Positions 56,897-57,822 of a DNA stretch of 64,000 nucleotides are shown here, in pieces (position 1 is the stretch's first letter; every line of letters begins with the position of its first letter). This DNA comes from Planococcus shixiaomingii (GTDB taxonomy: Bacteria > Bacillota > Bacilli > Bacillales_A > Planococcaceae). The position numbers were made by a program, and so were the translations under genes. The notes under the pieces were generated by a model. That model did not search any database and had not been told where the DNA came from. It worked only from the letters and a program-made list of their open reading frames with translations. The DNA is taken from contig NZ_CP129236.1 of NCBI RefSeq assembly GCF_030413615.1, forward strand, positions 1,472,001 through 1,536,000, written 5' to 3'.

Positions 56897-57073
56897 CTTT
56901 CTAAAGTTGTATTGCCGTTAATTGGAAAAGAAATAAGAGGATATATTATTATTATTATTCACCCGGCCTTTGCTGCTAACTTATAAGGAAACGCACCCTT
57001 CAATCAAATAACGTGAAAAACCCGGAATTATCCTCTATCATTAAGAAGTGAAGAAGAACTTGGAGGGATACTT

Positions 57074-57712
57074 ATGCATATTGAAATGTGGACCGACTTT
57101 GCTTGACCGTTTTGCTATATTGGCAAACGGCGTCTGGAAGACGCCATTCAACAGATCGACCATCCCATTGAAGTGACTTATCGGAGCTTTGAATTGGATC
57201 CGACAATGGGACGGGATATAAAAGACAATATGTACGAAATGCTTGCCAAGAAATACGGCATGACGATCGAACAAGCAAAAGCGAATACGCAGAACATGGT
57301 GCAAATGGCGAAAGAGTCAGGTTTGGATTATCAAATGGATACGTTGATTTTGACAAACACCTTTGATGCCCACCGCTTGGCGCTGTTTGCTAAACCACAT
57401 GGGCTAATGAAAGAAATGACCGAACGGATTTTGCGTGCCTATTTCACCGAATCCAAACATATCGGAGACCACGAAACGTTGACCCAGTTGGCAGTGGAAG
57501 TTGGTCTGGATAAGGATGCGGTTGCTAAAATGCTGGCAAGCGACGAGATGGCTGACGCCGTACGGGCAGAAGAAAAAACAGGCGCGCAATACGGGGTTAC
57601 AGGTGTCCCGTATTATCTGATCGACAAGAAATATGCTTTAACAGGCGCACAGCCGACAGAAGTGTTTGTTCAGGCGCTGAAACAAGTTATTGCAGAGGAT
57701 GGCAATAACTAA
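57074..57712 (+). CDS. FrnE/DsbA-family thiol oxidoreductase with in-frame TGA at the catalytic Cys
   Basis: A thioredoxin-fold oxidoreductase of the DsbA FrnE type (B. subtilis YwbO-like), 212 codons from ATG 57074 (behind TTGGAGGG) to TAA 57712. It begins MHIEMWTDFA; codon 11 (57104-57106) is TGA, followed in frame by PFCYIGKRRLE. Homologues have CPFC here, so the TGA replaces the first, nucleophilic cysteine and nothing else is damaged. The rest shows the helical insert and the cis-Pro loop GVTGVPYYLIDKKYALTGAQP (about 176-196). If TGA is read as selenocysteine the active site is U-P-F-C; if not, translation stops after 10 residues. Cytoplasmic, no signal peptide. First gene behind tRNA-Arg, monocistronic with a strong terminator. 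Confidence 0.85.
57129..57145 (+). promoter_or_regulatory. SECIS-like hairpin downstream of the in-frame TGA
   Basis: GGCGTCT (57129-57135) pairs perfectly with AGACGCC (57139-57145), leaving a GGA loop. The loop begins 30 nt after the TGA. A G at the loop start, a 4-16-bp stem and 16-37-nt spacing are the published bacterial SECIS features as remembered. A competing hairpin, CCGTTT (57107-57112) with AAACGG (57125-57130), has a bulged T. Confidence 0.45.
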
Positions 57713-57790: not shown

Positions 57791-57822
57791 CCACCCGATC
57801 AAATTGATCGGGTGGTTTTTTA
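57791..57822 (+). terminator. Terminator after the FrnE-like gene
   Basis: CCACCCGATC pairs perfectly with GATCGGGTGG and is followed by six T residues. Confidence 0.95.

Follow-up and report, generated by a model that had tools for sequence, protein, structure and literature searches.

The window analysed here (64,000 nucleotides of contig NZ_CP129236.1 of Planococcus shixiaomingii) contains a frnE-type gene predicted to code for an oxidoreductase of the DsbA/FrnE family (Table 1). Its frame starts with ATG at 57074, ends with a TAA whose last base is 57712 and contains a single internal stop, the TGA at codon 11; the translation begins MHIEMWTDFA*PFCYIGKRRLE, where the asterisk stands for that TGA. 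An earlier note on this DNA had described a 212-codon frame broken only at this codon (DFA-*-PFCYIGKR), and this description was confirmed. Downstream of the gene, a terminator-like inverted repeat suggests where the frnE transcript would end. No conserved gene neighbourhood was found around the gene, since the only family common to all 16 compared loci was the frnE-type gene itself.

Table 1. Position of the frnE-type gene, its proposed signals and related features. Positions are those of the window unless a contig is named.
Feature	Position	Strand	Evidence or remark
mdh (malate dehydrogenase), in-frame TAA	3449-3451 (gene from near 2989)	+	QSGVLD*ARFRTF
Shine-Dalgarno-like GGAGGG	57062..57067	+	6 nt ahead of the ATG; read from sequence
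frnE-type gene, DsbA/FrnE-family oxidoreductase, predicted UPFC active site	57074..57712	+	212 codons + TAA, one TGA read through
TGA, codon 11, proposed selenocysteine codon	57104..57106	+	TGA in the DNA of 72/73 close orthologues, TGT in one
Weaker proximal hairpin (tentative), between TGA and main hairpin	57111..57127	+	MFE fold
TGC, codon 14, resolving cysteine of UxxC	57113..57115	+	invariant in 12 family orthologues and 26 aligned Sec/Cys homologues
ATT, codon 16, start (MGK...) used by most database entries	57119..57121	+	past the TGA, without CxxC
SECIS-type hairpin, 7 bp stem, triloop GGA at 57136-57138	57129..57145	+	predicted fold and conservation
Proline codon 179, Val-Pro loop	57608..57610	+	V178-P179 invariant in 26 homologues
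Terminator-like inverted repeat CCACCCGATC / GATCGGGTGG, then T6	57791..57821	+	by eye from sequence
Sec cluster: selA, selB (-), tRNA-Sec, ORF, selD (+)	contig C1 of the window's genome (G000), 3743082-3748883		outside the window; L001, L009, L017, L058; ~6 kb

With the TGA treated as a residue, the window protein matched the Pfam family DSBA (PF01323) with an E value of 1.3e-44 and 152.7 bits (cut-off 25.6). It combines this domain with a TGA, the proposed Sec codon, at the first position of the CxxC motif (TGA-P-F-C); the family of UxxC DsbA-like selenoproteins is defined by this domain with Sec at that position. The closest PDB relatives by sequence were FrnE of Deinococcus radiodurans (E 3.8e-48), a protein that we take to correspond to COG2761, and SCO1869 of Streptomyces coelicolor. 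The same two were the best matches by fold: an AlphaFold2 model of the window protein (pLDDT 95.5) was superposed by Foldseek on 5cnw with a TM score of 0.95 and 42% identity in the structural alignment, and both fold and sequence were those of FrnE. Codon 11 aligned with the first Cys of the FrnE motif CPWC, and V178-P179 is presumably the cis-Pro loop of the thioredoxin fold. Among the 12 orthologues from the window's bacterial family, dN/dS was 0.08 over codons 1-10 and 0.07 over codons 12-195; this purifying selection ahead of and behind the TGA excludes a dead gene. The orthologue at locus L029 (genome G130) stops early (197 aa, with a TGA after TEY), perhaps through a frameshift near the 3' end.

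Conservation of the TGA was analysed in three samples of genomes. In 250 genomes of the window's family, 12 close orthologues were found (81-100% identity, the window's own included), and all of them carried TGA at codon 11. A selA gene was present in 27 of these 250 genomes, among them all 12 with the TGA orthologue (Fisher p 2e-13, a figure that ignores kinship). In a scan of named species, considering the best 80 of 592 relatives, the 15 top loci had TGA at codon 11, their genera including Neobacillus, Fictibacillus, Cytobacillus, Bacillus, Alkalihalobacillus, Evansella and others; the other 65, more distant loci (L097-L161) all had CPFC and therefore Cys, in agreement with the claim of the earlier note that the TGA occupies the position of the redox Cys of homologues. 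All 15 named TGA genomes had selA, versus two of the 15 genomes tested out of those with the 65 Cys loci. In the Neobacillus terrae family (193 genomes), 99 genomes had a close homologue (E at most 1e-75), which contained one TGA in 98 of them and none in genome G285; selA was present in G285 and in 97 of the 98 TGA genomes, and overall in 172 of the 193. Stop counts in the family scans refer to close orthologues among the matches listed. The position of the TGA was read for 54 of these 98 genomes (49 from loci of the family scan and five from loci of the named species) and was codon 11 each time; for the remaining 44, the evidence is one TGA inside the match. Six matches of genus g4 that had been scored as containing one TGA (G003, G022, G040, G056, G067 and G086) were rejected, since their TGA was the terminal stop and their CPFC was intact.

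After pooling and removal of overlaps, 115 of 116 TGA genomes had selA. The sole exception, G450, is a 3.6 Mb assembly that is perhaps incomplete; the converse exception is G285, which has selA although its gene carries Cys (TGT). In total, 73 close orthologues were read as DNA, 72 with TGA at codon 11 and that of G285 with TGT; four duplicate rows (L190, L193, L214 and L216) and one Cys row (L218) had been dropped ahead of counting. A search of plasmids returned 94 matching records, all below 60% identity and none belonging to the TGA group. These results suggested that Sec-FrnE is predicted to be widespread, as it appears in Planococcus, Neobacillus, Fictibacillus, Cytobacillus and relatives, and truncated database entries suggest its presence also in Mesobacillus, Niallia and Rossellomorea.

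The genome of the window contains the machinery for selenocysteine: a tRNA-Sec with anticodon TCA (62.6 bits, cut-off 47), selA, selB over the full profile, and selD with one in-frame TGA, the SelA, SelB, SelD and tRNA-Sec matches each lying above the curated cut-off of their family. The tRNA-Sec score also exceeded the cut-off in five of 14 control genomes, so this match carries weight only in combination with the anticodon and the sel genes. An ORF located inside the Sec cluster resembles, by eye, a glycosyltransferase. In the sample of the window's family, selD had an in-frame TGA in all 27 selA genomes, 15 of which have selA and the UGA-containing selD but lack a frnE-type TGA gene, indicating that the sel genes do not exist for the selenocysteine form of FrnE (U-FrnE) alone. 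FdhA was tried as another selenoprotein client and rejected, as none of its 20 matches in 17 of the 27 selA genomes had an internal stop. The earlier note had proposed searching for sel genes and aligning orthologues, and had named as refutation a genome without sel genes together with TGC or TGT in all close relatives; the opposite was found on both counts. Its reservation that selenoproteins are rare in Bacillales did not hold in the two families sampled, given the frequency of selA in them (27/250 in the window's family and 172/193 in the Neobacillus terrae family).

The SECIS-type hairpin was found exactly where the earlier note had placed it, with a perfect 7-bp stem (GGCGTCT / AGACGCC) that starts 22 nt past the TGA; there are 29 nt between the TGA and the loop, and the predicted energy is -9.9 kcal/mol. 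According to the available part of PMC13188914, bacterial SECIS (bSECIS) elements have a loop of 3-9 nt on a stem of 4-16 bp, a G in the first two loop positions, a spacing of 16-37 nt and an MFE of at most -7.5 kcal/mol; the frnE hairpin agrees with all four of these published constraints. In order to estimate how often such a structure arises by chance, all TGA trinucleotides of the window, on either strand, were counted: 20 of 2,363 were followed by at least seven contiguous Watson-Crick pairs obeying the SECIS rules for spacing and loop, and 137 of 2,363 when G-U pairs were allowed (27 in a looser separate count). With a chance of about 1%, or 6% with G-U pairs, the hairpin alone is weak evidence. 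Fold z-scores of five TGA rows ranged from -0.5 to -3.6, and thermodynamics alone would not have settled the SECIS question. The weight of the predicted element lies in its conservation over 72 sequences with changes that keep the pairs.

Among the 72 TGA rows, 56 had the full stem and 71 had at least six of the seven pairs. The 16 rows without the full stem lacked pairing at one or two positions: in 12 this concerned the apical U-U, and four had lost pair 1. Pair 1 was G-C, G-U or A-U in 68 of the 72 rows, and pair 4 in all 72. None of 65 Cys homologues had the full stem (six of seven pairs in 5/65), and the TGT gene of G285 had four of the seven pairs. The loop GGA was present in all 72 TGA rows, but also in 25 of the 65 Cys homologues. 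Over 26 distinct sequences, 99.5% of cells were paired and two pairs had changes on both sides. In a shuffle test, which ignores kinship, the paired-cell fraction, the covariation score and the count of cells altered on both sides were matched by none of 500 shuffles, whereas two of the five covariation measures (pairs changed on both sides and further pair types) were reached by 299 of 500. When codon 20 was CAT (His), codon 23 was GAT in 13 of 13 cases, and when codon 20 was CGT, it was GAC in 55 of 59; at codons 26-195 of the same genes, GAC accounted for 263 of 771 Asp codons. Changes in the putative stem thus couple amino acid substitutions to silent ones. A tree-aware count left three to four independent contrasts per pair, which puts significance out of reach; for pair 4, three of three contrasts had the right direction in most samplings, and for pair 1 about three of four, with one against. 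Synonymous variation pointed to the same region: same-residue codon differences in TGA orthologues were 0.17-0.28 over codons 12-24 versus 0.46-0.56 over codons 25-190, and Cys homologues showed no dip over codons 12-24 (0.53-0.66).

Part of this region lies ahead of the main stem. Codons 12-18 (57107-57127) show strong synonymous conservation in TGA orthologues (0.17), not in Cys homologues (0.53), and no covariation. In the tentative proximal hairpin that they hold, pairing extends to 71-72 of the 72 TGA rows for columns 10-13/19-22 and to 49 for column 9-23; none of the hairpin's pairs showed a compensatory change in those rows. As the main SECIS element it was rejected, one pair being broken in 23 of 72 rows and covariation being absent. 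A layout in which a short proximal hairpin abuts a distal one appears in the predicted folds of both frnE and selD, and behind the selD TGA it was found in 25 of the 27 selA genomes of the window's family. A speculative extension, to which we give about one chance in four of being right as a whole, is that SelB of Bacillales reads such a tandem signal and that U-FrnE ranks among the main clients on whose account part of the Planococcus group retains its Sec system, FdhA matches there being free of internal stops.

Other explanations for the interrupted frame were considered. The gene could code for a Cys protein and have acquired a recent nonsense change (TGC or TGT to TGA), or its sequence could contain an error; either would be compatible with the existence, in the same genome, of a CPFC paralogue without a stop (C1:468152-468787, 42% identity) that could replace a dead gene, and with the interruption of a second gene in the window. 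The in-frame stop of mdh, to which the earlier note had drawn attention, is real, but its codon is TAA, which cannot be a Sec codon; homologues presumably have Thr at that position. Against such a lesion in frnE stand the sharing of the codon-11 TGA by 72 of 73 close orthologues from many genera, the low dN/dS on both flanks and the conserved hairpin. Conservation of the TGA across independently sequenced genomes refutes this explanation, whose residual probability is negligible.

Public annotation implies that translation really begins with the codon-16 ATT and gives a protein with no CxxC. Most entries follow it: a database search scored 7,998 candidates sharing most words, and among the best 120 proteins, 97 began downstream of the TGA (93 at codon 16, MGK, and four further), one began otherwise, 15 had Trp at the TGA position and seven had Cys. 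This start is nevertheless very improbable, since 11 of the 12 family orthologues (counting the window's) have GGAGG ahead of the upstream ATG and the remaining one has AGAGGG, purifying selection acts on codons 1-10, codon 16 reads ATC or ATA in three of 27 aligned orthologues, and the product would lose CPFC, which is invariant in 26 homologues. The 15 entries with Trp might speak for reading of UGA as Trp or another residue without Sec machinery, the hairpin merely promoting readthrough, but they probably arose because the gene caller took TGA as Trp. The presence of selA in nearly all TGA genomes, the correspondence of the position to the catalytic Cys of homologues, and the Cys (TGT) of the sole close non-TGA orthologue read as DNA make this third possibility scarcely credible.

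The selenoprotein candidate of the earlier note was thus supported by the Sec machinery, the conservation of the TGA and the conserved hairpin with its compensatory changes. We estimate at about 0.95 the probability that 57074-57712 encodes a selenoprotein, a FrnE-type oxidoreductase in which the UGA of codon 11 would be read as Sec within a U-P-F-C site. In the proposed pathway, SelA and SelD would produce Sec-tRNA(Sec), and SelB would bind the hairpin located 22 nt past the UGA and deliver Sec at codon 11. The product would be a dithiol-disulfide oxidoreductase of the FrnE type, probably cytoplasmic, in which Sec11 may act as the attacking selenolate and Cys14 may resolve the selenenylsulfide. 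A C-terminal CX4C tail is present in 54 of the 60 TGA orthologues from outside the window's family and in none of the 12 inside. Where present, the tail may re-reduce the active site; the window-family orthologues would need another reductant. According to the available part of PMC8945050, the tail of the D. radiodurans protein (drFrnE) extends to the active site and has a proposed role in its regeneration, a drFrnE mutant is sensitive to cadmium and diamide, and there are FrnE proteins that lack the CX4C tail. Its absence from the window protein is thus not decisive for the FrnE subfamily, and by analogy with the tail and mutant data U-FrnE may function in cytoplasmic thiol repair or thiol stress.

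A quick tree was built from 102 proteins after masking of the Sec/Cys column. The 72 TGA rows grouped with six Cys rows as a single clade (SH-aLRT 99); at least six changes of state are needed, and many inner branches were weak. The simplest reading of this sequence-based history, given low support inside the clade, is a single gain of Sec followed by several reversions to Cys. Some of the seven Cys entries of the database could be conversions of U; only the Cys gene of G285 was read as DNA. Sec may have arisen here separately from the published DsbA-like selenoproteins (e.g. NIP15863.1). A corrected annotation gives a disulfide oxidoreductase with a Sec form, a natural Cys form (G285) and a Cys paralogue in the same genome, and direct comparison of the Sec and Cys forms could ask what selenium buys a thiol enzyme.

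Within the same genomes, the selenoprotein most like U-FrnE in its signal is SelD: in both genes, a stem capped by a G-first triloop lies behind the in-frame TGA. They differ in that selD has, in the MFE fold, a stem of 6-8 bp with loop GUU at a spacing of 33 nt, and frnE has loop GGA at 29 nt. As a protein, the closest known system is FrnE of D. radiodurans (DR_0659; PDB 5cnw, 5xwh), which shares with the window protein 42% identity, a TM score of 0.95 and the position of the active site, and whose CX4C tail recurs in 54 of the 60 TGA orthologues from other families than the window's. DR_0659 has Cys22 in CPWC (numbering of PMC8945050, available part), whereas the window protein has a proposed Sec and no CX4C tail.

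The other known system is the family of UxxC DsbA-like selenoproteins, which have likewise Sec first in UxxC and belong to the same Pfam family, PF01323. Such proteins have been predicted since 2005, when nine Sargasso Sea sequences of COG2761 with UGA and SECIS were described (PMC1088965, available part), and the accessible portions of later surveys count 45 proteins from 41 organisms (PMC5029168) or catalogue the family (PMC9312934), also as 'DsbA-like protein form 1', PF01323 UxxC (PMC13188914). The hosts reported there differ from those found here: in the available excerpts they are marine metagenomes, Anaeromyxobacter, Desulfovibrio and Desulfotomaculum (PMC1794560) and Asgard archaea (PMC13188914), as against Planococcus, Neobacillus and their kin. 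The same excerpt of PMC1794560 counts three selenoproteins for Bacillales, without names. A survey of the literature by title and abstract opening returned no description of Sec-FrnE in these bacteria; supplementary tables may already list some Bacillales. Since UxxC DsbA-like selenoproteins have already been predicted, the window protein would represent a new, widespread and misannotated case of that family.
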